NCBI GenBank assembly: GCA_030685065.1
Contig: JAUXQH010000175.1
Span: forward strand, 62,001-126,000
Direction of reading: 5' to 3'
Origin: Pseudomonadota bacterium
Lineage (GTDB): Bacteria; Myxococcota_A; UBA796; SXON01
DNA: 64,000 nucleotides
Each line of letters opens with the position of its first letter. The stretch's first letter is position 1. Under the pieces are notes generated by a model that was not told the origin of the DNA, searched no databases, and saw only the letters and a list, made by a program, of their open reading frames with translations. Shown piece after piece: positions 15,199 through 44,840 of this stretch. The translations under genes and the position numbers were made by a program.

Positions 15199-16674
<1,476 letters not shown>

Positions 16675-16677
16675 GTC

Positions 16678-19136: not shown

Positions 19137-19298
19137 TGGACCTCGAACGAACGGTGGCGTACGCGGTAACCTGTAGAGGGTAGGTCCGGGGGTGGGCGGA
19201 TGTCCACCACGAATCCCACGGAACGCCCCGTTCGGCGCAGAATGGGACAAGCCAGAACACGCGGCTGCGGCATAGAGGGTTCCGCTCCGGAGGGTGGA

Positions 19299-22756: not shown

Positions 22757-23506
22757 TCAGAACGTGTACTTGAGCGACCCCGTGCCGTTCACGCCGAGGT
22801 CCCACCCGATACCGTACACCACGTCGACATCGACGCCGATGGAGAAGTGGGACAACTTCGTATAGTACTCGAACGTCGGCCCCACGAAGACGACCGGCTT
22901 CGGAGAGTTGTGCAGGCCGGGATCCCCTTCGAAGTCGCCCAGCACTTCGTCCGCGTAGGCGTTGGGCTCGATCAGCAGGGGGCTGTAGAGCACCCCGGCG
23001 CCGATGCGCGCGCCGATGCCGATACGGCGCACGGGGTAGAACGAGATCTCGTAGTTGGCCTGCAGGGTGTAGGTGCGCAGGTCGCCTTCGGTGCAGGGCT
23101 CGGAGCCGCCGAGAGGGGTGGTGTAGCAGCCGGCCCCGGCCTGCTCGTACCAGGCGGCGCCGTTGTGCACGCCCTGGCCGATCGCGACTTCCCACGCCAT
23201 CGACTGCTTTTCGGTGTCCACGAAGTCCTGGCCGACGGCCAGCGTGACGTTCGTGCCCGCGTCGACCGAGCGGCTGAAGTTGAGCAGGTACGCGCTCACG
23301 CCCGCCGAGGCCTTGCCGTAGAAGCCGCGGTTGATCTCGCGGATGGTGCCCGCGTCATCTTGCGCGGCCTTGGCGGCGCGGGTCAGCTTCTTCGGCTTGG
23401 TGTCTTCTTCGTTGAAGCCGCTGTCGTCGTCTTCGTCCTGAGCAAACGCGGCGGACGTGATCATCGGCGAGGAGAGCAGGGAGGCGGTAAGCGCCAGGAC
23501 CATCAT
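22757..23506 (-). CDS. cglE: Adventurous gliding motility protein CglE homologue
   Basis: 249 residues with a signal peptide ending near AAFAQ. The body is an outer-membrane-barrel-like sequence with landmarks I associate with Myxococcus CglE: AWEVAIGQGVHNG, EQAGAGCYTTPL, GDLRTYTLQANYEISFYP, VRRIGIGARIGAGVLYSPLL and the C-terminal VGPTFEYYTKLSHFSIGVDV ending KYTF. CglE is a contact-stimulable outer-membrane component of gliding, exchangeable between cells. Second of two adjacent ATGs used (23504-23506), with GGAG 7 bases upstream; a start at 23554 would put residues ahead of the signal. Last gene of the gliding locus. Confidence 0.82.
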   Translation of the reverse strand: MMVLALTASLLSSPMITSAAFAQDEDDDSGFNEEDTKPKKLTRAAKAAQDDAGTIREINRGFYGKASAGVSAYLLNFSRSVDAGTNVTLAVGQDFVDTEKQSMAWEVAIGQGVHNGAAWYEQAGAGCYTTPLGGSEPCTEGDLRTYTLQANYEISFYPVRRIGIGARIGAGVLYSPLLIEPNAYADEVLGDFEGDPGLHNSPKPVVFVGPTFEYYTKLSHFSIGVDVDVVYGIGWDLGVNGTGSLKYTF

Positions 23507-23562
23507 CAACGACTCCGGCAGAGAGGCCCACCACAGTAGCACGAGGCATAGCAAAACGGAAA

Positions 23563-23588
23563 GCGGGCCCGGTGAGAACCGGGCCCGC
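23563..23588 (-). terminator. Intrinsic terminator after the GltG paralogue
   Basis: On the minus strand an 11-bp stem GCGGGCCCGGT / ACCGGGCCCGC is followed by TTTCCGTTTTG. It lies just past the stop of the FHA-less GltG paralogue and separates it from cglE. Confidence 0.75.
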
Positions 23589-23596
23589 GGCAGCCG

Positions 23597-25039
23597 TCAG
23601 CCGGGCGAGAACAAGAAGGGGTACGACACGATCACCAGGCCGTTGCCCTTCGGCGCGGGGAACCCGAAGCGCAGGAAGCGCCCGTTGATGCACGACTCCA
23701 CGGCCGGGTTTCCGAGCGTCGAGGTCTTGGTGACCGCCGAGGAGACCGAGCCGTCGCCCGCGATGGTGAATTTCACCGTGACCTTGCCGCCGAGCGCCGG
23801 GTTCTTGGTGAGCTCGCGCTGGTAACAGTACCGGATCTGGCTCATGCCGCGCTTCACCACCTCGTCGATCTGGGACCGGTCGAGCCCGCCCATGACGATG
23901 GTGGTGTCCGGGCTGGTGATGGTTCCCGTCTGCTTTCCGGGCCCGCCAGTGGGCGCGAAGCCGGAGCCGCCGGGCCTCCCACGCCCAATGGGCCCGATCC
24001 CGCCCATGGAGTCCGCGGTTCCGCCGCCACCGAAGCCGCCGTTCCGGCTGCCGAGGCCACCCGACCCCAGCTGCGTGGCGCGCGGCCCGATCATGGCGCC
24101 GACTCCGTTCGCCAGCTCACCCGGGAGGCCCGCGTCTCCCAGCATCGAGGCGAGGTTCGCGTCGTCCTGCAACGCGCCCAGCAGGCCGGCGTTTTTCGCG
24201 GCGTGCTGGTCGCGGTCGGCCTTCGAGATGGGGTCGCGGTCCTTCGGCGCCTGCGAGTCCGGCCGCCCGTGCTTGCCCTCCTTCCCCTTCGGGGCGGCCT
24301 TGGGCGCGACCGCCTCGGCCACCGGCACCGGCGCCACGTACGCGGCCTGCTCGAGGAGGATCTGCACGAGCCGATCCTCGTCGGTCATGGTGGAGGCGCG
24401 GGAGCTGGAGGGCACGACGGAGAGCGCGACCCCGAGCAGCATCGCCGCGAACCCGATGAACCCGGTGATGCCGAGGAGGGGGTAGTCGATGCCGGCTCCG
24501 CCGTAGATGGGAACCCGCTTGCTGGGGTGCACGGGGCGAGCCACGAAGGTGGTGCCGCCGACGATCACCACGGCGCGGTCCTCCGGGCCGATGGGGAGGC
24601 GCACGAGCCCGTCCACGCCGGGGCCCACGAGGGCGGCGAGCGCCGGGAGCGAGCGCCGGCCCGCGGGGCCCTCCACGAACCCGTCCCACTCTGGCTGCAC
24701 GACACACACCCAGCCGCGCCCTTCGGCCTCGAACAGGGGGTGCGTGCCAGCCGCGAGCAGCGAGGTGGGGACGAAGAAGTCCTCCTGCATCCGGGTGCCA
24801 CGCAGCGAGCGGACGAGCGTGGCACCGAGCTGCACGGCGCGGCCGGGGGCGAAGTGTTTGAGATCGACCACGGCGTCACCGAAGACCTGGGCCACCTCGA
24901 GGACCCGCTCCTTGCCCCGATCCGCGGAGGGGTCGGCGATGTCCTCTGCGCTCAGGAGCAGGTCGAGGACGTGCGTGGCAAGGGTGTCGTCCCATGGGCC
25001 GGTGCCAACGGCGGCGGTGGGGAGGGTGGCTTCGGACAT
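23597..25039 (-). CDS. GltG-type paralogue without FHA domain (AgmX/PglI C-terminal domain)
   Basis: 480 residues. Layout: cytoplasmic domain 45-180 containing LEVAQVFGDAVVDLKHF, one transmembrane helix 187-209 (LLGITGFIGFAAMLLGVALS), a periplasmic charged stretch, a Gly-rich linker about 310-385, and a C-terminal TonB-like AgmX/PglI domain (MSQIRYCYQRELTKNP, LGGKVTVKFTIAGDGSVSSA, ending YPFLFSPG). It matches the FHA-bearing neighbour nearly residue for residue in the last ~95 positions but lacks the N-terminal FHA domain and also the zinc-ribbon/GYF part of Myxococcus GltJ. It probably contacts outer-membrane Glt parts and is driven by a proton channel. GGAG 6 bases before the ATG. Confidence 0.8.
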   Translation of the reverse strand: MSEATLPTAAVGTGPWDDTLATHVLDLLLSAEDIADPSADRGKERVLEVAQVFGDAVVDLKHFAPGRAVQLGATLVRSLRGTRMQEDFFVPTSLLAAGTHPLFEAEGRGWVCVVQPEWDGFVEGPAGRRSLPALAALVGPGVDGLVRLPIGPEDRAVVIVGGTTFVARPVHPSKRVPIYGGAGIDYPLLGITGFIGFAAMLLGVALSVVPSSSRASTMTDEDRLVQILLEQAAYVAPVPVAEAVAPKAAPKGKEGKHGRPDSQAPKDRDPISKADRDQHAAKNAGLLGALQDDANLASMLGDAGLPGELANGVGAMIGPRATQLGSGGLGSRNGGFGGGGTADSMGGIGPIGRGRPGGSGFAPTGGPGKQTGTITSPDTTIVMGGLDRSQIDEVVKRGMSQIRYCYQRELTKNPALGGKVTVKFTIAGDGSVSSAVTKTSTLGNPAVESCINGRFLRFGFPAPKGNGLVIVSYPFLFSPG

Positions 25040-25261
25040 GAGGACTCCAATCACCAGGTGGTGACAGCTGCTTCAACCCCGCAGGATTGCGGGAGAAGTG
25101 GTTGCGGGAACGAGACTCTTCGTCTCTTCCTGGTCTGACATCGCCCGTGTCCGCGGGTTCGTCTAGGAGTCGCAATCCAATCGTCTAGGGAATGTCAGAG
25201 CCTCCCAAGTGTGTCCGCGCGCTGTCTCCCTGGTTTGGGAGGGTCCATCCAAAACGACGAA

Positions 25262-25279
25262 CGGCGCCCGAAGGCGCCG
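25262..25279 (-). terminator. Intrinsic terminator after gltG
   Basis: On the minus strand the stem CGGCGCC / GGCGCCG with a TTCG tetraloop is followed by TTCGTCGTTTTGG. It begins 33 bases after the gltG stop. Confidence 0.7.
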
Positions 25280-25311
25280 CTCTCTTGAATCGGCCCTGGA
25301 GGGCCCGCTGC

Positions 25312-27189
25312 CTACCCGGGCGAGAAGATGAAGGGGTAGGAAACGATGACGATGCCGCCGCCCTTCGGCTCGGGGAACTGGAACCGCATGAACCGGCCGT
25401 TGATGCAGGACTCGACCGCGGGGTTGTTCATCGTGGTGGTCTTGGTGGTCGCGGACGACACCGTTCCATCCTTGGCGATGACGAACTTCACGGTGATCTT
25501 GCCACCCAGCGAGGGGTTCTTGGTCAGCTCGCGCTGGTAGCAGTACCGGATCTGGCTCATGTTGCGCTTGATGACCGCGTCGATGAGCGACTTGTCGAGC
25601 GCGCCGAGGATGATGGGGTCACCACCGACGGTGCCGATGCCGCCATCGCCCTTGGTGCCGAAGTTTCCGCCGCCCGAGCCGTAGCCCGAGGCGCCCGACC
25701 CACGGCCCTTGGTGCCGAGGCCGCCGAGGCCTTCCGCCGTGCCGCCGCCGCCGAGACCCGACCCACGCGCGCCGAGGCCGCCGGAGCCGATCTGGGTGCC
25801 CTTGGCCCCGATGAGCCCGCCGATGCCGCTCATCATGTCGGCGTTGAGCCCGGTGGCGCCGAGCATGCTGTCGAGCGCCGAGTCGTCGCGGAGGGCGCCG
25901 AGGACACCGGCGTTCTCGGCGACTTCCTTGTCCAGCTGCTGCTTCTGCATCTGGACCTTGTCGCCCTTCGCCTTGTCCATCTTCGCGTCTTTCTTGCCGA
26001 CCTTGCCCTCTTCCTTCTTGGCCTTGGCGCCCTCACCCGCGTCCGGGTTGTCGTCGCGCTTCTTCTCGTCCTTGATCTCTTCCTTCTTCTCGAGGAGGAG
26101 CTCGACCATGTGGTCGTCGAGGAGGTTGTTCGAGCTGTCCGGCGGGGGGGGCATGACCGCCACGGCGACGCCGAACATGAACGTCACGAACGTCATGAAC
26201 GCGATGATGCCGAGGAAGGGGTAGTCGATGTCGCTGCCGAACTTCGAGACGGCCTTCTTGCCGGGGTACGCCTGGTGGGCGACGAAGATCGTGCTGCCGA
26301 GATCGACGACGAGCCGGGCGTCTTCCGGGATTTGCACGGTGATCGTGCTCCCGTTCTTCTTCGCCTTGCCGTCCGCCACGAGCTCGGTGAACGTGCGGCG
26401 GGTCTCACCGATGTCGACGAAGCCGGCCCACTTGTCGCTGGCGTTGCAGACCCACTGGCCGCCGACGTTCTGGAAGAGGACGTAGTTCTCGCTCGGGAGG
26501 AACTCGACCGGGACGAAGAAGCCGGCCTTGGACGAGGCGCGGTCATCGAGGCCGACGATGGGGAGCGTCGCGGAGCCCACGACCACGGTGCGGTTGCCGG
26601 CACCGCCGGAGGCGTAGAAGTGCTTGATGTCGAGGACGGCGTCCCCGAAGACCTGGGCCACCTCGAGGTGCCGACCGCGCGAGCGGTCGGATGCCGCGTC
26701 GGTCGCGGAGGCGCTGGCGCGCATCACGAAGGCCATCACGTCTTCCGCGGGCTCGTCGTCGTCACCGAAGACCTGGGCCTCGGGAGCCTCGCCGGTGCTG
26801 ACCGTGTGCTTCTCGAGCGAGAGGGTCGGCGCGTCGACGCGCGTGGCCTCGTCATCCGCGAACGCGGCGGAGTCGGTGATCCGGACGACCACGCGCACGG
26901 CGCCGAACCCCAGGGTGTCGCCGTTGGAGAGCACGACGTTGCTCACCGACGCGCCGTTCACCTGGGTGCTCTGGTCGCCGACGAGGTCGAGCAGCTGCAC
27001 CGTGCCGTCCTCGTTGACGTTGAGCACGGCGTGCAGGTCCTGCAGCGAGGGGTCCTCGATGCGCAGCATCGCGGCGGGGCCCTTGCCGATGGTCACGCTC
27101 TCAGCGGAGAGCTCCTCGCGACGGACGAATTCCCCGCCGTTGAAGATCTCGAAGGTGAGGACGAGCGAACCGGAGGATGAACCGGCCAT
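25312..27189 (-). CDS. gltG: FHA-domain gliding protein GltG (AgmX/PglI C-terminal domain)
   Basis: 625 residues. Residues about 25-105 form an FHA phosphothreonine-binding domain (SVTIGKGPAAMLRIEDPS, DLHAVLNV, QSTQVNGASV), 175-300 a cytoplasmic domain with LEVAQVFGDAVLDIKHF, 323-346 one membrane helix (YPFLGIIAFMTFVTFMFGVA), then a Lys/Glu-rich periplasmic stretch, a Gly-rich flexible tract about 455-525 and a TonB-like C-terminus (MSQIRYCYQRELTKNPSLGG). In Myxococcus, GltG spans the inner membrane, binds regulators inside and reaches outer-membrane Glt parts outside. AAGGGA precedes ATG 27187-27189. Confidence 0.82.
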   Translation of the reverse strand: MAGSSSGSLVLTFEIFNGGEFVRREELSAESVTIGKGPAAMLRIEDPSLQDLHAVLNVNEDGTVQLLDLVGDQSTQVNGASVSNVVLSNGDTLGFGAVRVVVRITDSAAFADDEATRVDAPTLSLEKHTVSTGEAPEAQVFGDDDEPAEDVMAFVMRASASATDAASDRSRGRHLEVAQVFGDAVLDIKHFYASGGAGNRTVVVGSATLPIVGLDDRASSKAGFFVPVEFLPSENYVLFQNVGGQWVCNASDKWAGFVDIGETRRTFTELVADGKAKKNGSTITVQIPEDARLVVDLGSTIFVAHQAYPGKKAVSKFGSDIDYPFLGIIAFMTFVTFMFGVAVAVMPPPPDSSNNLLDDHMVELLLEKKEEIKDEKKRDDNPDAGEGAKAKKEEGKVGKKDAKMDKAKGDKVQMQKQQLDKEVAENAGVLGALRDDSALDSMLGATGLNADMMSGIGGLIGAKGTQIGSGGLGARGSGLGGGGTAEGLGGLGTKGRGSGASGYGSGGGNFGTKGDGGIGTVGGDPIILGALDKSLIDAVIKRNMSQIRYCYQRELTKNPSLGGKITVKFVIAKDGTVSSATTKTTTMNNPAVESCINGRFMRFQFPEPKGGGIVIVSYPFIFSPG

Positions 27190-27310
27190 GGGAGTCCCTT
27201 GCGACCGCATGCGCGGCCCCTGAGGTTTGCGCGCCCGGGAGGGCGCTGAACGGGACGGGCGCCCCGTGGATGCGTTCTGTAGAAGGCTGTGGAGAAGGCC
27301 TGTGGAGGGG

Positions 27311-27589
27311 CTACTTCACTTCGTCGACGGACTGTTCCATCTCGGCGTTGAAGTCCTCACGCAGCTTGATGAGGGGATTGAAGCTGGCCTTCTTGCGGTC
27401 GAGCACGAGCGCGCTGGACGGCTTCACGAGCTCGCCGCTCACGTCGAGGCCTTCGAAGTCGATCTCGGTCTTCTGCTTGTAGGAGACCTTGCGGCCCTCG
27501 GCTTCTTCTTCCTGCGCGAAGGCGGCGCCGGAGAGCGCGCCCGTGAGGGCGCTGACGAGGACGAGACGAGAGAGGAGAGTACGGGTCAT
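27311..27589 (-). CDS. cglF: Adventurous gliding motility protein CglF homologue
   Basis: 92 residues: a signal peptide ending AAFAQ, then a short mature part with RKVSYKQKTEIDFEGLDVSG, ELVKPSSALVLDRKKASFNP and LIKLREDFNAEMEQSVDE. These match the small CglF family of the Myxococcus gliding system, an outer-membrane-associated partner of the Glt complex. The ATG at 27587-27589 is chosen because upstream ones would precede the signal. It stands 121 bases upstream of gltG and after the gltE terminator, so it starts a new transcription unit. Confidence 0.78.
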   Translation of the reverse strand: MTRTLLSRLVLVSALTGALSGAAFAQEEEAEGRKVSYKQKTEIDFEGLDVSGELVKPSSALVLDRKKASFNPLIKLREDFNAEMEQSVDEVK

Positions 27590-27772
27590 TGGAGGCTCCC
27601 GGAGGTGTGGGCGCTGCGGGCACATTGTCGCGTGCCATGAAGCATAGGACAATAGGACGTTGCCGGGGTTCCGGTCAAACTTCTGTCTAGCGGACGTTCC
27701 CCTGGCGCTCGGCCGGAACCGGGCCGCTCAGAGGCAGCCTGGGCAAGCGGACGAGGGGGCGAAAAAACCGAC

Positions 27773-27804
27773 AGCCCCGCCGCGAGCATACTCGCGGCGG
27801 GGCT
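27773..27804 (-). terminator. Strong intrinsic terminator after the gltA-E operon
   Basis: On the minus strand a 14-bp stem (AGCCCCGCCGCGAG / CTCGCGGCGGGGCT) with a four-base loop is followed by GTCGGTTTTTTCG, a classic T tract. It sits 24 bases beyond the gltE stop and closes the gltA-gltE transcript. Confidence 0.88.
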
Positions 27805-27827
27805 GGTGGGTTGGGGCGACTTCGCCT

Positions 27828-29309
27828 CTACTGCGGTGCCGGTGCCGGGGCCGGAGGGGCCTCCGGAGCGGGGGCCGGGGCCGTGCCCGCACCCACGGGC
27901 ACCGTCCCTTCCGGTGCGGGCGGCGTGGCGCCCTCCACGGGAGCGGCGGTACCGCACGTCGCCTTCGCGGCTTCGAGCTGCGCCATGGAGTCCGTCACGA
28001 AGGTCTCCATGTCGCCGACCATGCCGAGATCCTTCTCGGTGATGACGGGCTCGGCCTGCTCGATGACCATCTGGGCCATCTGACCGGCGTCCGTGGCGAG
28101 GAGGCACTCGTTCTTGAGGTCCGCCTTCATCTTCGCGATGTTCTCGGCCATCTGCTTGAGCTGTTCGGCCTGGCGCTTCTCGCGGGCGATGCGCTCGTCC
28201 TCGATGCGCTTGAGCTCTTCTTTGCGCTTGCGGTCGATCTCGCGATCCTTCTCGACCGAAGCCTGCCACTCGAAGAACTCGTCGCTCGGGGAGAGCGTCC
28301 CGGCGCCCTTCTGGAACTCTTCCAGGACCTTCTTGGCCTTGTCGAAGTTCTTGGTGTACTTCTGGTAGAGCATCGTCGCGTTGTAGGCCAGCACGCGGTT
28401 GCCCGGGTCCTTGGCGAGGAGCGTGTCGTAGATCTTCGTGGCGGCGTCGTAGTCCTGGACGCCACGAAGCGCGATGGCGTAGCCCATCTGCGCGTCGGCG
28501 TTGCCGGGGAACTGCTTGACCACGGCCTCGAAGCAGGTCTTCGCGAGGACGTAGTCGCCCGAATCGAGCGCGATGTACCCGAGGTTCAGGTTGGCCTGCA
28601 TGTTGCCGGGGTCGACCTTGATCGCGGTCTTGAACTCCTCGATCGCGGCGGCCTCGTTGCCCTTCTGGAGCTGGATGACGCCCATGTTGTTGTAGATGCC
28701 GGGGTCGGCATCGTTCAACGTCTTGGCCTTCTGCGCGCAGAGGAGGCTCATCTCGAAGTTGCCCTGCGCGTAGTACGCGCGGGACAGGTTCCGGTAGGCA
28801 CCCACGTTCTTGGGATCACGCGCCAGGATCTCCTGCGCCTGCGCGATCGCCTCGTCGTAGAGCTTGGCGTTCGTGAGGACGTCGACCAGGTTGGCGCGGG
28901 CCTGGAGATCGGTGGGGTTCTTCTCGATGAAGCCCTTGTAGAGCTCGATCGCCTCGGTGCTCTTGCCCGTCTGACCGAGCACGAGGCCCAGGTTGAACAG
29001 CGCCGAGTTGTAGGTCGGCTGGAGCTCGAGGGCCTTGCGGTAGCTGGCCTCGGCCTTCGCGAGGTCACCCGTGCGCTCGGCACAATATCCGGCGTTGTAC
29101 CAAGCCTTGGCGTACGCCGGGTCCGCCGTGGTGGCGGCCTCGAACTTGGCCAGGGCCGCGGCGTAGTCGATCGAGCTGGCCTTGAGCAGGGTCACGCCTT
29201 CGGTGAAGGCCTGCTTCGGGTTCACCGTCTGCGCCGTGGGGTTGGTGTCAACAGGGACCTTCGGACCGCAGCCCGCGGCGAGGAGGACAATGATGGGGAG
29301 AATGCGCAT
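27828..29309 (-). CDS. gltE: Gliding motility TPR lipoprotein GltE (AglT-like)
   Basis: 493 residues. Signal MRILPIIVLLAAGC (Cys14). Residues about 35-330 are tandem TPRs (AKAWYNAGYCAERTGDLAKA, NSALFNLGLVLGQTGKSTEA, PGIYNNMGVIQLQKGNEAAA). A highly charged coiled-coil stretch with REIDRKRKEELKRIEDERIA follows at about 340-400, then CLLATDAGQMAQMVIEQAEP and a Pro/Ala tail. In Myxococcus the TPR lipoprotein GltE belongs to the periplasmic/outer-membrane gliding complex. It starts 9 bases after gltD and is followed by a strong terminator. Confidence 0.82.
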   Translation of the reverse strand: MRILPIIVLLAAGCGPKVPVDTNPTAQTVNPKQAFTEGVTLLKASSIDYAAALAKFEAATTADPAYAKAWYNAGYCAERTGDLAKAEASYRKALELQPTYNSALFNLGLVLGQTGKSTEAIELYKGFIEKNPTDLQARANLVDVLTNAKLYDEAIAQAQEILARDPKNVGAYRNLSRAYYAQGNFEMSLLCAQKAKTLNDADPGIYNNMGVIQLQKGNEAAAIEEFKTAIKVDPGNMQANLNLGYIALDSGDYVLAKTCFEAVVKQFPGNADAQMGYAIALRGVQDYDAATKIYDTLLAKDPGNRVLAYNATMLYQKYTKNFDKAKKVLEEFQKGAGTLSPSDEFFEWQASVEKDREIDRKRKEELKRIEDERIAREKRQAEQLKQMAENIAKMKADLKNECLLATDAGQMAQMVIEQAEPVITEKDLGMVGDMETFVTDSMAQLEAAKATCGTAAPVEGATPPAPEGTVPVGAGTAPAPAPEAPPAPAPAPQ

Positions 29310-29318
29310 CGTGTTCTC

Positions 29319-32300
29319 TTAGGGCTCAGATTCGATGGTACCGGCGAAGGTCGAAGGCGCCGAGTACCGGGCCTCCGGGATCTTCTCGAACAGGCCCGGG
29401 AAGTCATCGGGGCGCAGGACGCCAAGACGACGGGTCGCATTCGCGGTGTTGTCGTTGTACAGGTTGAGCTCGTAGGACTTCTGGAGCGCCGCCGAGTAGG
29501 CCGCCGCCGCCTTCTCGATCTGGGGGTACGCCTTGTCCTCGAGCGCCATCGTGTAGAGCTCCTTCTGGTCCGCCGTGAGGTAGGTCGGGATCCAGGAGCC
29601 CTTCAGCGACTCGCTCAGGTTCTCGTAGGCGGAGCCGAGGCGCGCCAGGGCCGCGAGGCCCCACTCGCCGGCACCGGTGCCGATGATGCCCGCGTAGGTC
29701 TTCTCGACCTCGCTCATCGCCCGGACCTTGGAGACGAGCTGCTCGGTCAGGAGCTTGTCGGTCTGCTTCTGGTTGAGCTTCTTGTCCCCGGGGCCGCCGA
29801 TCTTCATGGCCATGTACGCCTGGTACTGGGGCTCGGCGAGGATGTACATGATCTGAGCGACGTACTCGACGGAGAGCTCGAACTGCGCGCCCGCCTTCTT
29901 CTGGATGTCGAAGAACGCGACGGTTTCTTTCCAGTGGGTGCCGACCTTGGCGCCCTGGCCGAGCTTGTCCATCAGGAGCCCGTAGTGGAGCCGGGCGTAC
30001 ATGAGCTCATCGAGAGAGCCCATGACCTGCGGAGGGGCGCCCCTCACGACGGGCTTGGGGGTGTAGAACCCGAGGTAGACCTTGGAGGCCTCCGCCCACT
30101 TCTCGTGCTCTTCGTAGATGCGCGCGATGTCGAGCTGGATGCCGTTGAGGTTCGGCTTGTCCGGGAACGCGGTGATGTACTGCTGGTAGTTCTTGACCGC
30201 CTGCTCCCACTGGCCGAGGGAGTTGCGGAAGAGCGCGGCCGAGTAGAGCGCGTCGGGCGCGCCCGGGTGCGCCTTGTCGAGGACGTACAGCTTCTCGTAC
30301 CAATTCGCGGCCTCGCCGAAGTTGGCGATCGACTCGTAGTCGAAGCCCAACGCGGCGACCTGGTCCTTGTAGTACTTCGACTTGGGGAACTTCTCGACGA
30401 TGACGTGCCGGACCTTCATGGAGTCGGTCACGTTTCCGAGGTCCCGGTAGTAGACCGCGGCGTTGTTCAACGCGAGGTCCGCGTTCTGGGAGCTCGGGAA
30501 CTCCTGGTAGAAGGCCCAGTAGTCCGCCGCGCCCTGCTTCTTGTCCGAGGTCTTCTTGAAGTTGATCTCGATGAACTTCAGCGAGGAGTTCTCGTAGACG
30601 CCGTAGACCTCCTTCTTGAAGGAGTCGGAGCCCAGGCCCACCTGGTCGAAGTAGAACTTGGAGTTCTTCTTCAAGCTGTCCCAATCTTCGACGAGCGCGA
30701 AGCTGTCGAGGATCAGGTTGGCCGCCTGCTCGGCTTCCTTGGACTTGGGATCCATGGAGATGACGACGTTGAAGCGCTCGGACGCTTCCTTGAACTGATT
30801 CTTGTTGTAGAGGAGGTAGGCCGACTTGTAGATGATCTGGCGCGCCTTCGGATCGGTCGGGAAGAGCTCGCGGAACTGATCCAGCGCCTTGAGCTGCTTC
30901 TGCTCCCAATCGGAGAGCGGGATCGCGTCGGTCTTCTTGCCTGGATCGGGCCCACCGGCGCCGCTGTTCTTGGCCTCGCGCTTGATCATCTCCTCAGCCG
31001 CGAAGATCGCGGATTCGGCGCAGAAGCGGGAGTGCTGGCCCTTGGTGTCGATGCTGACGACCTTCATGTACTGGTCGTAGGCGCTGTCGAACTTCTTGAT
31101 GGTGTACAAGAGCTCGGAGTACGAATAACGCACTTCGTAGCTGTACTTGGAGTCCGGGAACTCCTGGATGTAGACCTCGTAGGCCTTCTCTGCGAGCGCG
31201 TAGGTCTGCGCGGCCTGGGAGCCGGTCTTCAGCTTCTTCGCTTCGTTGTGGTAGTTGATGGCTACCGTACGCAGGCCCTTCTCGATGAGCTCCTCTGCGG
31301 TCTTCACGGCGTCCTGGTTCGACGCATTCGTGCGCGCCCAGGAGCTCTGCTTGCCGTAGTTCTTGAGGAGGCGATCGATCTCGGCGAGCGTGTCCTCCTT
31401 CTTGCCCATCTTGGTGTAGGCCTGGATGATCTCGTTCTGGAAGTCCGGGGCGGCCGGGCCCTGCGGATCCTCCGCGATCAAGCGGCGGTAGGTCTGGATG
31501 GACGACTCGAACTTGCCCTGCTCGAAGTAGGTCGACGCGAGACGCTTGAGCATGTCGCGGATGAGCTCTTTCTTGCCGAGCTTGTTGAAGTACTCGTAGG
31601 CCTCGTCCATCTCGCCGGCGTCGGCGAAGAAGCGAACGAGATCCTTGAGCGCTTCGTCCTGAAGCTGGAGGGTCTTGCGGACGGGCTTTCCGTCGGGCCC
31701 GACTGCGCTTTCGCTCATCGAGTACGACACGACCGCCTTCATCTTGTCGATGGCGGTGGGGTAGTCCCCGACGTTGTAGTAGCACCAGGCGAGCTTGTAG
31801 TTCGCGAAGGCGTACTTCTCGTGGTCCTTGTACGCGGCGGCCTTCTGGTAGGCGTTGAGCGCCTTGTAGGCCTCGTTCTTGTCGAACCAGTACTCGCCGA
31901 TGAGCACGTAGGCGTCGGGGACGAACCGGCTCTCGGGGTAGGTCTTCACGAGCTTGGTGAACTCGGTGTTCGCCGGATCGGTCTGCCCGGTGTCGGACAG
32001 CGCTTGACCCAGGTAGAACGTGGCTTCGTCAGCCCGCTGATACTGGGGGTAGCTGGCCAGGATCTGCTTGTAGAGCTTGATGCTCTTGTCCTGCCAGCCG
32101 CGCGACTCCTTCACGAAGTCGGCCTGCTTGATGTTGTCGGTGTTTCCGTTCGGCTTGTTGAACTCTTCGTCAACGGCCTTCTGGAAGATCCCCATCTCCG
32201 TGAGGTAGAGCTCACGCCCTTCCTCGAAGTAGAGGTCCGCGAGGCGGAGGAGCATCTCCGCCTTCTGGTCGCCCTGCGCGGACGTTCCCGAGATGATCTC

Positions 32301-32528
32301 CTTGAGGCGGGAGATCGACTCGAGACGCGCCGCCCGCGCGGCTGCCCGGAGGGCCTCCGACTGCTGGGTAGCGGCATCCACGTCCGTGGCCTTGAGCACA
32401 CGGCGCTCGGCCTTCTGGTCGCGGCCTTGCGCGTACGCGGCCGACGGGGCGAGGGTCACCGCGAAGGTGCCCGCCCCGAGAAGGAGGCTCAGCGCGAGGC
32501 CGACGCGAGGAGAAAACATGCGTTCCAT
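29319..32528 (-). CDS. gltD: Gliding motility TPR protein GltD (AgmU-like)
   Basis: 1069 residues: signal peptide MERMFSPRVGLALSLLLGAG to about AYAQ, then a periplasmic solenoid of many TPR-like units (e.g. RADEATFYLGQALSDTGQTD, KYAFANYKLAWCYYNVGDYP, DFQNEIIQAYTKMGKKEDTL). The size, Lys/Tyr-rich composition and position between gltC and gltE match AgmU/GltD, the large periplasmic gliding scaffold. AAGGAG precedes ATG 32526-32528; a second ATG at 32517-32519 is possible. Gap of 80 bases from gltC and 9 bases to gltE. Confidence 0.8.
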   Translation of the reverse strand: MERMFSPRVGLALSLLLGAGTFAVTLAPSAAYAQGRDQKAERRVLKATDVDAATQQSEALRAAARAARLESISRLKEIISGTSAQGDQKAEMLLRLADLYFEEGRELYLTEMGIFQKAVDEEFNKPNGNTDNIKQADFVKESRGWQDKSIKLYKQILASYPQYQRADEATFYLGQALSDTGQTDPANTEFTKLVKTYPESRFVPDAYVLIGEYWFDKNEAYKALNAYQKAAAYKDHEKYAFANYKLAWCYYNVGDYPTAIDKMKAVVSYSMSESAVGPDGKPVRKTLQLQDEALKDLVRFFADAGEMDEAYEYFNKLGKKELIRDMLKRLASTYFEQGKFESSIQTYRRLIAEDPQGPAAPDFQNEIIQAYTKMGKKEDTLAEIDRLLKNYGKQSSWARTNASNQDAVKTAEELIEKGLRTVAINYHNEAKKLKTGSQAAQTYALAEKAYEVYIQEFPDSKYSYEVRYSYSELLYTIKKFDSAYDQYMKVVSIDTKGQHSRFCAESAIFAAEEMIKREAKNSGAGGPDPGKKTDAIPLSDWEQKQLKALDQFRELFPTDPKARQIIYKSAYLLYNKNQFKEASERFNVVISMDPKSKEAEQAANLILDSFALVEDWDSLKKNSKFYFDQVGLGSDSFKKEVYGVYENSSLKFIEINFKKTSDKKQGAADYWAFYQEFPSSQNADLALNNAAVYYRDLGNVTDSMKVRHVIVEKFPKSKYYKDQVAALGFDYESIANFGEAANWYEKLYVLDKAHPGAPDALYSAALFRNSLGQWEQAVKNYQQYITAFPDKPNLNGIQLDIARIYEEHEKWAEASKVYLGFYTPKPVVRGAPPQVMGSLDELMYARLHYGLLMDKLGQGAKVGTHWKETVAFFDIQKKAGAQFELSVEYVAQIMYILAEPQYQAYMAMKIGGPGDKKLNQKQTDKLLTEQLVSKVRAMSEVEKTYAGIIGTGAGEWGLAALARLGSAYENLSESLKGSWIPTYLTADQKELYTMALEDKAYPQIEKAAAAYSAALQKSYELNLYNDNTANATRRLGVLRPDDFPGLFEKIPEARYSAPSTFAGTIESEP

Positions 32529-32608
32529 GAATCGGACTCCTTGTCCACAACCGGCGGATGGACCGCTGGTCAGGGGCGCACCGGGGCCGCCCAGGAAGAA
32601 GGGGAAGG

Positions 32609-34495
32609 CTACTTGCAGGATCCCTGCTCGGTGTACCGGTAGTACCCGAGCTCGTCCTGCCAGAACTCGCCGTTGAACGGCCAGTAGATCTTGTTGGCCG
32701 AGGTGCCGTAGTTGATGTCGACGTCCTTCGAGAGGTCGGACAGGTCGGGGGTCGACATCATGTAGTTGAGGATGCCGCGCTTGGCGTCGATGACCTCGAA
32801 CCGGATGATCTCGGCTTGGGTCAACAGATCCCCCAGGTAGGTGGTCATCGTGACCATCTCCTGCAGGAGCGCCAGGCCGGCGCGGCGCTTGAGGCGCTCG
32901 CGGTCTTCGGAGATGACCTTGTGGAGCTGCTCGCCCACGCCGTCCTTCCATTGGGACTTCTGCGAGTCGATGAGCGCCTCTTCGCGATCCATGATCTCGA
33001 GGTGCGTCACGATGCCCGCGAGCTCCTGGTCACGCAGCACGCGGGTGAACATCGACTTGGGGAGCACGGTGTCCGCGGCCTTGGGGTCGAAGTACCGGTC
33101 GTACGCCTGGTCGGCGAGCTTGCGGCCCTCCTCCGTGGAGTACTGCTTCAGGAAGTCCTTCATCTCCGCGTGCATCGGGCGATAGCGCGCGTCGAAGTCG
33201 AGGAGGATGCGATCAACGTCCTCGTACTCACAGAGGTTGAAGAAGGTGAGCGCGCGGAGGACGGTCGCCTCGGGGACGAACTCGTCCTTGTTGTAGAACG
33301 GGCTCTCGAGCGTCAGGAGCTGGCCGAGCGTCAGGTTGAGGTCCGACAGCATGAAGTTCGCCCAGGCGCTCTCGAACAGGCTCTGCGGCCAGTAGCGGGA
33401 GTCGCGCGCCACGTACGCGTAGTACGTGTTTGCGTCCTTGAAGTTCTCGATGCTGTAGTAGATGCGCGCGATGTTCATCAGCGACAGATCGCGGAGACGA
33501 TCGAGCTCCTCGAGCTCCTGCTGCGTCGAGGCGGAGGCCTCGGTACGGGCCACGTCCGTGAACGAGCGCACCGCGCTCTTCAGCTTGCCCTGCTTGTTGT
33601 AGATCACGCCCTCGAAGTACTTGGAGCGCGTGAACAGGTCGGACTTGTCCGAGACCTGCCCGAAGTACTTGCGTGCCTCGGTCAGCTTGTCCTGCTCGTA
33701 GAGCCGTACACCCAGCAGGTAGTAGAGCTGGTTGCGCGCGGAGCGGGGGAACTCCTCGGGCGGGATCTTCGCCACGATGCGGGCGAGATCCGACTCGTCG
33801 CCGGTGAACTTGGCGATGCTCACGAGCTTGGGGAGCGCGTATTTGAAGTAGGGATTGGAGGGCCCCTTCTTCAGCACTTCGATGAAGTAGTACTGCGAGG
33901 AGTGGTACATCTCGAGGTCGTAGAGCGACCGTGCGAGGTAGTACAGGATCTTGCTCTCCTTGTCGGGGTACTGGTTCTCCTGCAGCATCCGGTGGAGCTC
34001 GTAGCTCGCCGTGAGGGGCTTCTTGGCGTTGTACGCCTTGACCGCGCTCTCGAGCCCTTCGGGATCACGCCCCTCGTCTTCGCTGTCCCCGCCCTCTTCC
34101 GGCAGGTCCTGAAGCGTCTTGGTGCCAGACTTCTTGGCGCCGATGGCCTCGGTGTTCTGGTACTCCTCGTCCTCGGCCTTGGTGCCCGACTTGGTCGACT
34201 TGGTGGTCTCCCCGCGGACAGGCTCGGACGCCGCCGGTTCTTCGGCGGTGTCCTTCTGCATCAAGGCCTTCGCCGCGGCGACGATCTCGGCGGGCGCACC
34301 TTCGTTGGTGAGGCACCGGATATCGTCGGACGTGAACTTGTCGCCCGACGAATCGATCGTCTCGACGACGATGGAGGCGGGAACGTTGACGTTCACCATG
34401 TTCATGATCTCTTCGCACGTCAGCGCGTGCGCAGACGGAGACCAGAGCAGGGCGAGCGCGAGCGCGGGGGCGACCGGAAGGAGGTGCGACTTCAT
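32609..34495 (-). CDS. gltC: Gliding motility TPR protein GltC
   Basis: 628 residues. Cleavable signal (MKSHLLPVAPALALALLWSP, cut near SAHA), a small N-terminal Cys-containing domain (LTCEEIMNMVNVNVPASIVV), an acidic low-complexity stretch about 85-150, TPR-like repeats about 155-480 (SKILYYLARSLYDLEMYHSS, RNQLYYLLGVRLYEQDKLTE) and a conserved C-terminus (YWPFNGEFWQDELGYYRY). In Myxococcus GltC works in the periplasm with GltA/GltB. The ATG overlaps the gltB stop (TGATG), preferred over a GTG one codon earlier. Confidence 0.8.
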   Translation of the reverse strand: MKSHLLPVAPALALALLWSPSAHALTCEEIMNMVNVNVPASIVVETIDSSGDKFTSDDIRCLTNEGAPAEIVAAAKALMQKDTAEEPAASEPVRGETTKSTKSGTKAEDEEYQNTEAIGAKKSGTKTLQDLPEEGGDSEDEGRDPEGLESAVKAYNAKKPLTASYELHRMLQENQYPDKESKILYYLARSLYDLEMYHSSQYYFIEVLKKGPSNPYFKYALPKLVSIAKFTGDESDLARIVAKIPPEEFPRSARNQLYYLLGVRLYEQDKLTEARKYFGQVSDKSDLFTRSKYFEGVIYNKQGKLKSAVRSFTDVARTEASASTQQELEELDRLRDLSLMNIARIYYSIENFKDANTYYAYVARDSRYWPQSLFESAWANFMLSDLNLTLGQLLTLESPFYNKDEFVPEATVLRALTFFNLCEYEDVDRILLDFDARYRPMHAEMKDFLKQYSTEEGRKLADQAYDRYFDPKAADTVLPKSMFTRVLRDQELAGIVTHLEIMDREEALIDSQKSQWKDGVGEQLHKVISEDRERLKRRAGLALLQEMVTMTTYLGDLLTQAEIIRFEVIDAKRGILNYMMSTPDLSDLSKDVDINYGTSANKIYWPFNGEFWQDELGYYRYTEQGSCK

Positions 34496-35379
34496 CACTT
34501 CATTCCCGGGAAGAAGAAGGACACGTTGGCCTGGACGATGAAGTTGTTCTTCATCTCCAGCGTGGTGGAGTTGACGGTCTCGATGTACGACATCGACTTG
34601 CCCTCGACGCGGGCCGCGACGCTCTCGCTGAACGCGACACGGGCGCCGCCGCCGATGACCGTGGTGGGATGCACCTGGTTCTGCGTGAGGACGGCGGACT
34701 CGTCATCGTTCTGGAGGGCGACCAGGTCGTCCTGGGTCGCGGTGATGCCGAGACCGAAGTACCCGAAGATGTCGAACGCGATGATCTTCCGCCCGACGGC
34801 CGCCTTGCCGTAGATGGGGGAGAAGGCCAGCGCGAGGCTGCCGTGAGCGGTCAGCTTGGAGATGTCGGGGGAGACGCTGTTCTCGAGCAGGAGCTGCTTG
34901 GAGAGCGGCTTCCAGTCCGGATCGTTTTCGCCGCCCTGGCCGAGGATCGGGGCGTACCCGAGCTGCAGCTCGGCGGCGAACAGCTCGGTGAGGTGGTAGT
35001 CGAAGACGCCGCCGATGATGTACCGGTTGAGGAACGGATCGTTGGCGACGAACCCCAGGCTCGGACCCACCTCGTAGCGGTGGATCTTCATGAAGTTCTT
35101 CTTCTGGATCGTCTTGATGATCTTGCGGCGCTTGTCGTCCTCGCCCGGGAGCGAGGGCGTGCTGTCGGCCGCGGCGCCCTTCTTGACCGAGTCCCGCTCG
35201 GAGCGAACCGAGTCCTCCGGGGAGTCCTCGTCCTCGGTTTCCTCTTCGTCCTGGGCGACGGCGTCCTGGGCGACGGCGTCAACCGAGGCGATGGCGGGGG
35301 CTTCGACGGTCGGCTCTTCAGCATGAGCCATGCTGAGGGAGAGCGCGAGCAGCGGGAGGCTGAACATGAAGCTGGACAT
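34495..35379 (-). CDS. gltB: Outer-membrane beta-barrel gliding protein (GltB type)
   Basis: 294 residues with a signal ending AHAEE, an acidic spacer about 30-75 (DEEETEDEDSPEDSV), then KKNFMKIHRYEVGPSLGFVA and alternating beta strands ending NNFIVQANVSFFFPGMK with a penultimate basic residue. It resembles the next upstream gene (QNKFFVKANRFEIAPVVGYV), so the two are paralogous barrels corresponding to GltA/GltB; which is which is uncertain. The ATG at 35377-35379 and a TTG just before it are both 8-11 bases from GGGAG. Coupled to gltC through TGATG. Confidence 0.75.
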   Translation of the reverse strand: MSSFMFSLPLLALSLSMAHAEEPTVEAPAIASVDAVAQDAVAQDEEETEDEDSPEDSVRSERDSVKKGAAADSTPSLPGEDDKRRKIIKTIQKKNFMKIHRYEVGPSLGFVANDPFLNRYIIGGVFDYHLTELFAAELQLGYAPILGQGGENDPDWKPLSKQLLLENSVSPDISKLTAHGSLALAFSPIYGKAAVGRKIIAFDIFGYFGLGITATQDDLVALQNDDESAVLTQNQVHPTTVIGGGARVAFSESVAARVEGKSMSYIETVNSTTLEMKNNFIVQANVSFFFPGMK

Positions 35380-35399
35380 CAATGTGTGCGCTCCCGACC

Positions 35400-36338
35400 T
35401 TAGAAGTTGAACATCCGCGGCTTCATCCGCGGAATGAAGATGCTGATGCCGGCGGTCGTGAGGAACGTGTTGTACAGACGCGTCTCCAGCTCTTCGGGCT
35501 CCCCATTGGGGAGCTTGTTCCCGTAGTCCGGCTCATCGGCGATGTAGAAGGCGCCACGTGCGTCAATCTTCAGCGCGATGGACTGGGTGAGGAAGAAGTT
35601 GAGGCCGATCCCGAGGTTGAGGGCCGGGTAGGCCTCCGTGCTCGGGCTGGTGGAGGGGATCGCCGGATCAGAGCCCTCTACGCCCGAGGCGTAGTCAGGG
35701 TTGATGCTCGCGAAGTCCTTCGTCACCAGCAGGAGGCCGACGCCGGCGGTCCCGTATACGTCGAAGTTGAGCACGCCCTCCCCAATCAGGTTGATCTTGC
35801 CGTAGACCGGCGACCAACGTGCGGAGAAGATCGCTCCGAGCTGCAGCCGGTCGAGCGGCTGGCGGAACGTCGTGTCGTTGTTGCCCTCGTAGGCGATGCC
35901 GACGAGGGTCTGGGTGAGGCCCTTCATGCCCGCCGCACCCGTGTTGGGCGCGTAGAGGAACGTGCCCTCCGCGGCGAAGCTGTCACTGAAGTGGTAGGCG
36001 GCGATGGCCCCACCGTACACGCTCGTGACGAAGGCGTTGTTCGGGACGTAGCCGACGACCGGCGCGATCTCGAATCGGTTCGCTTTCACGAAGAACTTGT
36101 TCTGGATGAGGCTCACCGGCAGCTTCTTGCCGCGGATCTCCTCCAGCGCCTGTTCGGCGGGGTGGTCAGCTGCGGCTGCTTCCGGCACGGCGGCCATCAG
36201 CCCCACGAGACCGAGGAAGATCGCCAGTGTTGAAGACAACAGTGTCGAGGACGACAGGGTCGAGGACGACAGGGTCGAGGACAACAACTGCGATGTCAGC
36301 TTGCTTCGTGTCGGGCGGGGGACCGGCAACGTGGTCAT
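35400..36338 (-). CDS. gltA: Outer-membrane beta-barrel gliding protein (GltA type)
   Basis: 312 residues. An unusual N-terminus (residues 18-40) repeats LSSST four times before the hydrophobic LAIFLGLVGLMAAVPEAAAA leader. The mature part starts near ADHPAEQALEEIRGKKLPVS, then shows beta strands such as NRFEIAPVVGYVPNNAFVTS and YGGAIAAYHFSDSFAAEGTF, ending IFIPRMKPRMFNF. Paralogue of the adjacent GltB-type gene. First gene of the gltA-E operon; GGAG lies 9 bases before the ATG. The 200 bases upstream must contain the operon promoter, but no convincing -35/-10 was seen. Confidence 0.75.
   Translation of the reverse strand: MTTLPVPRPTRSKLTSQLLSSTLSSSTLSSSTLLSSTLAIFLGLVGLMAAVPEAAAADHPAEQALEEIRGKKLPVSLIQNKFFVKANRFEIAPVVGYVPNNAFVTSVYGGAIAAYHFSDSFAAEGTFLYAPNTGAAGMKGLTQTLVGIAYEGNNDTTFRQPLDRLQLGAIFSARWSPVYGKINLIGEGVLNFDVYGTAGVGLLLVTKDFASINPDYASGVEGSDPAIPSTSPSTEAYPALNLGIGLNFFLTQSIALKIDARGAFYIADEPDYGNKLPNGEPEELETRLYNTFLTTAGISIFIPRMKPRMFNF
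36233..36290. repeat. 15-base tandem repeats inside the gltA leader
   Basis: About four copies of a 15-base unit (plus strand gtcgaggacgacagg and variants), in frame, code LSSST units ahead of the GltA hydrophobic leader. Two central copies are identical, which suggests recent slippage. Confidence 0.75.
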
Positions 36339-36538: not shown

Positions 36539-37414
36539 TCAGCGGTAGCGAAGTGCGAGAGCCGTCCAGGCCATCCCGCCCCGGCGGTCGCGCACGACGA
36601 CCCACACCTTCGCGTCGGGCGCCGCGTCGTCGGGGGGGTAGTAGATCGCCTCGAAGTAGGGCCAGAGGTCATTGGTCTGGTCGAACTCGCCCGCCTCGGC
36701 GTACCAGGTCAGGTACGGCTCCTCGGTGCGCGTCTCCTCGACGCCCTCCTTGTTCACGAACGGGTAGGTCTCCACGGACTCATCGGAGAGCGCCACGGTG
36801 ATCGTGTACGGCTGTCCGCGGTCGATGGAGGCGACCGTCCCTTCCGGGATCTCCACGCCGTCGAGCGCGATCGCCGCGATGATCGGGTTGCGGTTGGGAG
36901 ACACGGCTTCGCTGACGGGAACGCGCTTGTAGGCGAGCTCCAGGTCGCTCTCGTCGAGCTCCTCTCCCTCGGAGGATGGCTCCGGGATGGCGGTCACATT
37001 CACGATCGCGGTCAGGCCCTCCAGGCGATCTTCCGGCGCGAGGGCGTCCAAGGCGTCGAGCGGGACGTTCCACACGGGGGGAAGGTAGGGCTCCGCACCG
37101 ATGAACCCGGCGGCGTAGAGCGCCTCCAGGTCGTCTGGCGAGAGCTCTCCGCTCGGATCGAGGGTGTCGAGGAGGGACTCGTCGATCGAGCAGCCGAAGT
37201 CGTCTCCTCCCACGAGGCACGCAAACCACACCGTGGAAGCCACCGCCACGTCGGGCGAGACGACCAGGGACGTGAACGTGACGCGATCGCCGGGGCGCGG
37301 CTCGGCGGGCTCCGCCGCGACGCCGAGAACGCGGAGCCGATCGATGCGCCAGCTCTCCGAGAGCTCGGTGGTCGTACACCCGAGCATCGGGGTCAGCAGG
37401 GCGAAGATCGGCAT
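36539..37414 (-). CDS. Hypothetical lipoprotein downstream of the TonB-dependent receptor
   Basis: 291 residues. Signal MPIFALLTPMLGC (Cys13). The mature part begins with a probable Ig-like domain (RVLGVAAEPAEPRPGDRVTF, STVWFACLVGGDDFGCSIDE), has a long acidic middle and ends in beta-rich AKVWVVVRDRRGGMAWTALAL. No family recognised. The ATG overlaps the receptor stop (TGATG), making it the last gene of the exbB-exbD-tonB-receptor chain; a role as the receptor's surface-lipoprotein partner, as in SusD-like or HusA-like pairs, is conjecture. Confidence 0.7.
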   Translation of the reverse strand: MPIFALLTPMLGCTTTELSESWRIDRLRVLGVAAEPAEPRPGDRVTFTSLVVSPDVAVASTVWFACLVGGDDFGCSIDESLLDTLDPSGELSPDDLEALYAAGFIGAEPYLPPVWNVPLDALDALAPEDRLEGLTAIVNVTAIPEPSSEGEELDESDLELAYKRVPVSEAVSPNRNPIIAAIALDGVEIPEGTVASIDRGQPYTITVALSDESVETYPFVNKEGVEETRTEEPYLTWYAEAGEFDQTNDLWPYFEAIYYPPDDAAPDAKVWVVVRDRRGGMAWTALALRYR

Positions 37415-40071: not shown

Positions 40072-40826
40072 CAGATCTCGTTGACCGCGCAGCTTTCGGG
40101 GACCCCGATCACGGCGACGGCCACGCCGTCCTGCTCCGCCGGCTTCCACTGCGACTTGCGGTAGGCGGCCACGCAGGCCTCGTCCACCCCGAAGCCGAGC
40201 CCGTGGACGATCTGCACGCGCGTGACCTTTCCCTTCGCGTCGAGGTCGAGGAGCACCTTGACGATGCCCTTGACGTTGGCTTTCCGGGCCTCGTCCGGGA
40301 CGTCCATCATCGGGCTCCACTGGAGCCTCGGCGCCTTGGTGACCGCGGTGTAGGGGCGCGCCTCGAACGGCCCCGACGCCTCGCCGAGGCTCATCGAGTC
40401 CTTCCCCGCGGCCACGCCGGTGGAGTTGCCTGCGCGAACCGACAAGCCGGTGCTCGCCCCGGGCGCAAAGGAATTGGCCGTGAGTCCCTGAACCTGCCGA
40501 ACGACGCGGCGCGCGGGCTCGGGCGGCGGCGCCACCGAATTCGGGGGCGGCGGGGTCGGGGTGGTGTCCTCGAACTTCACCACCTTGGGGACGGGCTTGG
40601 GCTTCTCCGGCTCAGGCTCGGGCAGCTTCGGCTCGGGCGGCTTTGGCGGCGGCGGCTTGGGCTCGTTCAGCGTCACCTCCACCCATTGCGAGGCCTTCTG
40701 TGCCGCCGCCGGGTTGGAGAGCAGGAAGATCGCGAACACCACGTGGACGCCGACGGAGACCCCGACCGCCGAGGAGCGGAGCACGCGCTGCCAGCGGGGC
40801 ACCGGGCGGTAGGGGGAGAGGCTCAT
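40071..40826 (-). CDS. tonB: TonB energy-transducing protein
   Basis: 251 residues: cytoplasmic tail, one signal-anchor helix at about 17-38 (VGVSVGVHVVFAIFLLS), a Pro/Lys/Glu-rich periplasmic rod at about 52-80, a linker, and a C-terminal domain at about 170-245 (DVPDEARKANVKGIVKVLLD, VHGLGFGVDEACVAAYRKSQ). It carries energy from ExbB-ExbD to outer-membrane receptors. The ATG overlaps the exbD stop (ATGA) and its own stop overlaps the receptor start, so stoichiometry is probably set by translational coupling. Confidence 0.9.
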   Translation of the reverse strand: MSLSPYRPVPRWQRVLRSSAVGVSVGVHVVFAIFLLSNPAAAQKASQWVEVTLNEPKPPPPKPPEPKLPEPEPEKPKPVPKVVKFEDTTPTPPPPNSVAPPPEPARRVVRQVQGLTANSFAPGASTGLSVRAGNSTGVAAGKDSMSLGEASGPFEARPYTAVTKAPRLQWSPMMDVPDEARKANVKGIVKVLLDLDAKGKVTRVQIVHGLGFGVDEACVAAYRKSQWKPAEQDGVAVAVIGVPESCAVNEI

Positions 40827-41260
40827 GGGGCGACGGCGGCCTGGGCGGCCACGGCGAGCGGATCGATGTTGATCGCGAACTTGGCCACGCCTTCCTGCTT
40901 CACGAGATCGATGATGTGCGTCACGTCCCCGTGGCGGGACTCCTTGTCGCCCGCGATGAGGCAGACGACTTCGGCGTTCTCGGCCTTCGCCGCGCGGACG
41001 GCGGCGCGAAGGGCATCCTCGGTCACGGGCACCCCGTCGAGGAACAACGAGCCGTCCGCCGCGACGGTGATCCCGAGCGAGGTGGGCTCGAGGTTTTCCC
41101 CCGAGGCGGCCTCGGGGAGGTTGACCTTGATCACGGGCGACACGATGTACGTGGCGGTCACCATGAAGATGATGAGGACGACCAGCACGATGTCGACGAG
41201 CGGCACGATGTTGATCTCGGTCATCGGCTCGTCGCTTCCGCCGCCGAGCTTGCCGGCCAC
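40823..41260 (-). CDS. exbD: ExbD/TolR biopolymer transport protein
   Basis: 145 residues. One membrane helix with the conserved proton-carrying Asp in VPLVDIVLVVLIIFMVTATY (Asp23), then a periplasmic domain (VKVNLPEAASGENLEP region, TVAADGSLFLDGVPVTEDAL, VCLIAGDKESRHGDVTHIID). With ExbB it forms the proton channel that drives TonB. The start is GTG overlapping the exbB stop by one base (TAGTG). Only one ExbD/TolR is present, unlike the two (AglQ, AglS) of the Myxococcus gliding motor. Confidence 0.9.
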   Translation of the reverse strand: MAGKLGGGSDEPMTEINIVPLVDIVLVVLIIFMVTATYIVSPVIKVNLPEAASGENLEPTSLGITVAADGSLFLDGVPVTEDALRAAVRAAKAENAEVVCLIAGDKESRHGDVTHIIDLVKQEGVAKFAINIDPLAVAAQAAVAP

Positions 41261-42435: not shown

Positions 42436-42475
42436 GACCGGGAGACCCGAGCGGGGGGAATTGGAGAGGGGAAGT

Positions 42476-42550
42476 TGGAGGCGACGGCCGGATTCGAACC
42501 GGCGTATAATGGTTTTGCAAACCATTGCCTGACCACTTGGCTACGTCGCC
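42476..42550 (-). tRNA. tRNA-Cys (anticodon GCA)
   Basis: 75 bases on the minus strand with a complete cloverleaf: acceptor GGCGACG/CGTCGCC, D stem GCC/GGC, anticodon stem ATGGT/ACCAT with loop TTGCAAA (anticodon GCA), variable loop TATAC, T stem GCCGG/CCGGC with TTCGAAT. The discriminator base is U, the cysteine identity element, and the 3' CCA is encoded. Confidence 0.97.
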
Positions 42551-44838: not shown

Positions 44839-44840
44839 GG

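Follow-up and report, generated by a model that had tools for sequence, protein, structure and literature searches.

A compact glt array beside a Ton operon in a class of Myxococcota: probable envelope half of a Glt/Nfs-type surface transport machine

The window (the whole 64,000-nucleotide stretch of DNA analysed here) carries a row of nine minus-strand genes that we read, with a probability of roughly 0.7, as the envelope half (A–H) of a proton-driven surface transport machine of the Glt/Nfs type, in a variant specific to its class. It is highly probable that the array belongs to a Glt/Nfs-type machine at all, while any role in gliding, of whatever form, is doubtful. The array itself is the usual arrangement, of a kind already known; the new part of the locus is the class-wide linkage to a Ton operon, together with the repeated occurrence of GltG-type arms without an FHA domain. 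A whole class thus carries an intact A–H array, usually Ton-linked, and in the window's family the MglB half of the switch that controls gliding is missing; the intact array combined with the absence of MglB in this family implies that the transport core has been separated from motility control. Two open questions are touched by this locus: how a TolQ/ExbB-type channel shifts outer-membrane parts sideways, and what role Glt-like machines played before gliding.

RESULTS AND DISCUSSION

The window encodes a complete GltA–GltH row

Nine open frames occupy positions 22757–36338 of the minus strand in the order gltA-B-C-D-E-F-G-(second GltG)-H, as the original prediction had placed them, and homologues of all of GltA to GltH are present. 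The features are as follows.

35400..36338 (-): gltA, outer-membrane beta-barrel (TIGR04565, over cut-off)
34495..35382 (-): gltB, outer-membrane beta-barrel (TIGR04565, over cut-off)
32609..34498 (-): gltC, periplasmic TPR protein (NF033756, 286 bits, below the cut-off of 450)
29319..32528 (-): gltD, TPR protein of about 1069 aa
27828..29309 (-): gltE, TPR lipoprotein (NF033758, 165 bits)
27772..27805 (-): terminator-like hairpin in the gltE/gltF gap (15 pairs, T-rich tail)
27311..27589 (-): gltF, also called cglF (NF033764, 58 bits; likely start ATG at 27589)
25312..27210 (-): gltG, inner-membrane arm (NF033760, NF033768; GltG match of 335 bits)
25259..25282 (-): terminator-like hairpin in the gltG/paralogue gap (hairpin scan)
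23597..25054 (-): second GltG-type arm, FHA-less (NCBIfam GltG match, 194 bits)
23563..23588 (-): terminator-like hairpin ahead of the gltH-slot gene (hairpin scan)
22757..23554 (-): gltH-slot gene of the cglE type (NF033755, 104 bits, over cut-off)

The predicted Glt/Cgl identities were borne out by NCBIfam matches, of which those of GltA, GltB, and CglE exceed the cut-offs, while those of GltC, GltE, GltF, GltG, and the second GltG are significant but below the equivalog cut-offs. GltD matched none of the NCBIfam gliding models and was identified by its position and its relatives, with 1633 bits in a profile built from the arrays; its likely start is the ATG at 32528, which has a Shine-Dalgarno-like site. 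GltG consists of an FHA domain, a second beta-sandwich, a transmembrane segment, a Gly-rich stretch, and a TonB-like tail, and the array therefore includes an inner-membrane arm with such a tail. The three hairpins, at the gaps where terminators had been proposed, are the top-scoring minus-strand sites of the terminator scan and are consensus matches only. The CglE-type gene fills the gltH slot; we take CglE to be GltH, in agreement with its place after gltG and its family match, and none of the papers searched names GltH and CglE together. CglF is another name of GltF (PMC4488436), so the earlier list of missing genes, which had included GltF and GltH, was partly an effect of naming.

TPR and barrel models are promiscuous, which favours taking the row for generic TPR and barrel genes with no relation to Glt. 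However, the Glt/Cgl models match over most of their length, in order, in dozens of genomes; this synteny refutes the generic-gene reading and leaves it a negligible probability.

The compact row is the common arrangement

GltC relatives were found in 113 of the 142 sampled Myxococcota genomes. A barrel gene together with C, D, E, F, and G within about 20 kb occurred at 39 of the 57 distinct class loci and at 18 of 37 loci elsewhere, with duplicate records merged, coverage uneven, and many contigs ending inside the array. The synteny comparison proposed with the original prediction recovered the same row around GltC or GltD across the family, order, and class of the window, as well as in further Myxococcota and a single Bdellovibrionales MAG, and the A-B-C-D-E-F-G-H order is conserved between the window array and its relatives' loci. 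In M. xanthus, the G1 order is gltD-E-F-G-H-I-J and the G2 order is gltK-B-A-C, while nfsA-H, 'respectively homologous to gltA-H', form a single cluster (PMC3858216); Anaeromyxobacter and Bdellovibrio likewise group their glt genes (PMC3169522). The compact row is the common state and M. xanthus, with glt genes at two sites, the exception, and the union of both M. xanthus clusters is no novelty. It is plausible that the compact array came first, being a common arrangement across the phylum and present in one Bdellovibrionales MAG; to this extent the ancestral form suggested earlier holds, and the minimal gliding machine coupled with it is not supported.

Three loci (L064, L065, and L068, in genomes G038, G043, and G058) have no gltG between gltF and gltH; loss of GltG was rejected for these genomes, since GltG-type genes are present elsewhere in them. 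In family f6 (L073, L075, and L076), the GltG frames are about 1100–1170 aa, nearly twice the usual length. A second full GltD (L187 3853–7155, genome G000 contig C123; 1142 bits) stands without recognised glt neighbours, and lone GltD copies resembling it occur at L140, L149, and L151.

The class array forms its own clade

The GltD and GltC trees resolved well-supported class, G1-type, L080-type (second-type), and AACDEFGH-type clades of one family, with the class clade separate from the other three. When the GltD tree was rooted on the genome's distant core-complex copy, the class fell outside the other three with a support of 91; the GltC tree with the same outgroup gave no resolved placement of the class. 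No Myxococcaceae genome was found among those scanned (the best MglA is 86% identical to M. xanthus MglA), and the G1-type and L080-type arrays are therefore not equated with glt and nfs. The assignment of family f22 to Myxococcaceae was dropped, its MglA being only 81–84% identical to that of M. xanthus. The GltD sequences of UBA796, UBA2385, and UBA2957 fall among those of the window's order, and UBA6601 is identical to a genome of the same class. The named relatives are uncultured MAGs, many of them from lakes and reservoirs, and we know of no cultured member of the class. Five loci with glt arrays of this class (L108, L110, L119, L145, and L168) come from public MAG records that bear the names Klebsiella pneumoniae or Bifidobacterium breve, apparently in error.

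Myxobacteria employ machines of this type for gliding or for the wrapping of spores. Among the closest known counterparts is the sporulation system Nfs of M. xanthus, which has the same eight gene kinds in equal order in one cluster and lacks I, J, and K (PMC3858216). This equality, and the capacity of AglRQS-type motors to serve both Glt and Nfs, argue for an Nfs-like machine that moves or deposits surface polysaccharide without motility, a reading we consider quite possible, at somewhat less than even odds. In contrast, the trees do not put the array within the second-type (L080) arrays, and its clade, apart from all other types, favours neither nfs nor glt as its orthologue; no polysaccharide export genes were recognised adjoining the array. 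The window also differs from Nfs in its FHA-less second arm, its upstream Ton operon, and its internal terminator-like hairpins. The Bdellovibrio cluster (Bd0828-0838) and those of Anaeromyxobacter share the grouping of glt genes (PMC3169522), whereas the window lineage is another class and has its own upstream Ton operon.

A second, FHA-less arm of the GltG type

The FHA domain is absent from the second arm, as first noticed from the sequence; the cytoplasmic sandwich, the transmembrane segment, and the TonB-like tail are retained. The pairing of a full GltG with an FHA-less, tail-bearing one was found for eleven proteins of the window's order, with the FHA-less arm located in the gltG/gltH gap in the window's family and mostly in the gltE/gltF gap in family f2. 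All FHA-less arms fall in one clade of the FastTree tree, whereas the mixture-model tree places two FHA-less sets each beside its own GltG, and a single origin was rejected under the mixture model (lnL difference 43, p-AU 0.005). The FHA-less arm thus appears to have arisen at least twice, although the long branches urge caution. If so, this recurrence would mark the FHA domain as the regulated element.

In its AlphaFold model, which has a mean pLDDT of 67 and low values between domains, the window's second arm shows a beta-sandwich at about residues 51–175 and a TonB-like C-terminus. A Foldseek search of the PDB returned an FHA domain as the best match (probability 1.00, E 0.012, target TM 0.54), with several TonB C-terminal domains also among the best matches and no match below E 0.001. 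This comparison is suggestive only, and would mean that 'FHA-less' denotes loss of the canonical FHA domain with retention of a second, FHA-like sandwich.

A Ton operon usually precedes the array in the class

Upstream of gltA, the same strand carries the following genes.

41968..42525 (-): small protein, also upstream of ExbB in close relatives
41260..41889 (-): ExbB/TolQ-type proton-channel subunit
40823..41260 (-): ExbD/TolR-type stator subunit with the conserved transmembrane Asp (VPLVDIVLVVLIIFMV)
40071..40826 (-): TonB-type protein (TonB_C)
37414..40071 (-): TonB-dependent receptor (N-terminal TonB_C domain, CarboxypepD_reg, plug)
36539..37417 (-): lipoprotein, last gene of the Ton operon (tandem Ig/FN3-like folds)

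From ExbB to the lipoprotein (36539–41889), neighbouring genes overlap by 1–4 nt, and ExbB, ExbD, TonB, and a TonB-dependent receptor stand together in one operon, as is typical of a Ton system. The operon ends 201 nt before gltA, and the ExbB-ExbD pair lies 4.5–5.6 kb upstream of it. The view that the window holds no motor needs amending, since this pair (40823–41889) belongs to the motor's MotA/TolQ/ExbB and ExbD protein family; it is a candidate only and is not assigned to AglRQS.

Comparison of the loci with at least 3.5 kb of upstream DNA revealed the receptor and lipoprotein directly before gltA at 36 of 39 distinct class loci and at none of 22 elsewhere; the exceptions in the class are L062/L142, L130, and L136, which have the array without either gene. 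Of the 33 class loci with at least 5.5 kb of upstream DNA, 25 had ExbB ahead of the array, compared with none of 17 such loci elsewhere. GltD proteins of the class can share as little as about 36–40% identity, so the Ton-Glt linkage is old. The lipoprotein matched nothing in Pfam or NCBIfam, and its high-confidence structure prediction shows Ig/FN3-like sandwiches in tandem, a generic fold. Its identification as GltK was rejected, as it goes with the Ton operon, including the copy on contig C96 of the same genome. This second operon has the same make-up and lacks glt genes, so that the Ton operon is able to work alone; it also contains the closest relative of the resident ExbB.

The class-wide linkage raises the alternative that the array is an accessory of the Ton operon, a periplasmic and outer-membrane scaffold for TonB-energised uptake or secretion via the receptor. 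An ExbB-ExbB-ExbD-TonB set near gltH in an unrelated lineage (L167) and the use of a TonB system and receptor for protein secretion in M. xanthus (PMC6434023) are consistent with it; the 201-nt gap, the three class loci with an array but no receptor or lipoprotein, and the glt-free operon on C96 argue against it, and we hold it to be improbable. The window operon resembles Ton systems such as Ton-Oar of M. xanthus in uniting ExbB, ExbD, TonB, and receptor, and differs from Ton-Oar in its single ExbD, the N-terminal TonB_C domain of its receptor, its lipoprotein, and its glt-array neighbour. At L167, the Ton set (16055–19963) comes shortly after gltH, with a 251-aa frame between them that starts one base after gltH.

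Gliding control genes and candidate motors

MglB-family proteins were detected in 4 of 29 class genomes versus 80 of 113 others, and neither the window genome nor its seven sampled family members has any. Canonical MglA is likewise absent from the window's family, and the MglA/MglB polarity switch is accordingly lacking in the window genome, where MglA is represented only by a divergent, tail-anchored GTPase (G000 contig C130:18270–18821, L216). This protein of about 475 aa is 49% identical to M. xanthus-type MglA, is present in all family members outside any mglBA pair, and has a long linker and, in copies read to their end, a C-terminal membrane helix; in the GTPase tree it falls in a clade confined to the class, which lies closer to MglA than does the second GTPase found in other genomes. 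A full-length GltJ (zinc ribbon, GYF, and TonB-like tail) was not found in the genome, whose best candidate (C72:95385–96965) has the zinc ribbon and tail only and reaches 56 bits where the cut-off is 450. Such absences from a 92% complete draft are weak for a single genome and consistent over the family.

These findings bear on whether the locus belongs to a genuine gliding machine of the M. xanthus type, acting at focal adhesions under MglA control, with AglRQS elsewhere and GltI, GltJ, and GltK scattered. The complete A–H set including the CglE and CglF types, the FHA-type GltG as in G1-type arrays, and the MglA-like GTPase speak for it. The missing MglB, the tail-anchored fusion form of the GTPase, and the low GltJ score point the other way, as does the open-water origin of many class genomes, though particle attachment is possible; we therefore regard M. 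xanthus-type gliding as unlikely, and the MglB, GTPase, and GltJ findings leave a minimal gliding machine unsupported. Compared with M. xanthus Agl-Glt (G1, G2, and M1), the window shares the GltA–GltH homologues, among them GltF/CglF and, in the gltH slot, a gene of the CglE type, in one locus instead of two; it differs in the lack of MglB in its genome and in a GltJ-type relative confined to another contig.

Apart from the resident pair, the genome has a dozen other ExbB/MotA-type matches; its several other ExbB/ExbD sets, including four with the ExbB-ExbD-ExbD layout, could supply the motor. The ExbB-ExbD-ExbD layout was rejected as a mark of AglRQS, because Ton-Oar shares it (PMC6434023). 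A separate core-complex cluster (L102 1592–12088, G000 contig C59) contains GltC-, GltD-, and GltE-like genes, an ExbB, two ExbD, an FHA/TonB-tail protein, and a porin-like barrel; a further ExbB-ExbD-ExbD set lies 10 kb beyond it.

Proposed transport mechanism

In the Agl-Glt model, proton-driven, TonB-like arms move an outer-membrane platform; GltG binds AglR, GltG and GltJ are TolA/TonB-like, and GltA and GltB may hold TonB boxes (PMC3169522, PMC5349195). For the Glt/Nfs-type surface transport machine that we favour, a TolQ/ExbB-family proton channel would cycle the inner-membrane arms, GltG and its FHA-less counterpart, whose TonB-like tails would span the periplasm, engage the TPR proteins GltC, GltD, and GltE, and also contact the outer-membrane barrels GltA, GltB, and GltH. 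The outer-membrane platform and its cargo, a polymer or an adhesin, would thereby be pulled sideways. With two versions of GltG in each cell, one arm could be phospho-responsive via its FHA domain and the other not. We consider it somewhat unlikely that the Glt arms, and not the receptor alone, draw on the resident ExbB-ExbD. A fuller form of that idea, in which this single-ExbD, Ton-type channel powers the array without MglB-controlled polarity and the TonB-like arms are shared with the receptor and the Ig-fold lipoprotein, would make the locus a Glt machine that became, or evolved from, a surface transporter energised by TonB; we rate this as rather improbable.

Neighbouring genes in the window

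A choice-of-anchor-D lipoprotein-like gene (21552–22718) directly follows gltH and is kept in many relatives. Another choice-of-anchor-D protein, with a vWA-like stretch (IAFALDTTSSMSS), is encoded on the same strand 4 kb past the array (17286–19200), and is possibly a surface adhesin. On the other side, penicillin-binding protein 1C adjoins a bacterial alpha-2-macroglobulin (42601–50456), with a tRNA gene (42479–42550) between this pair and the Ton operon.
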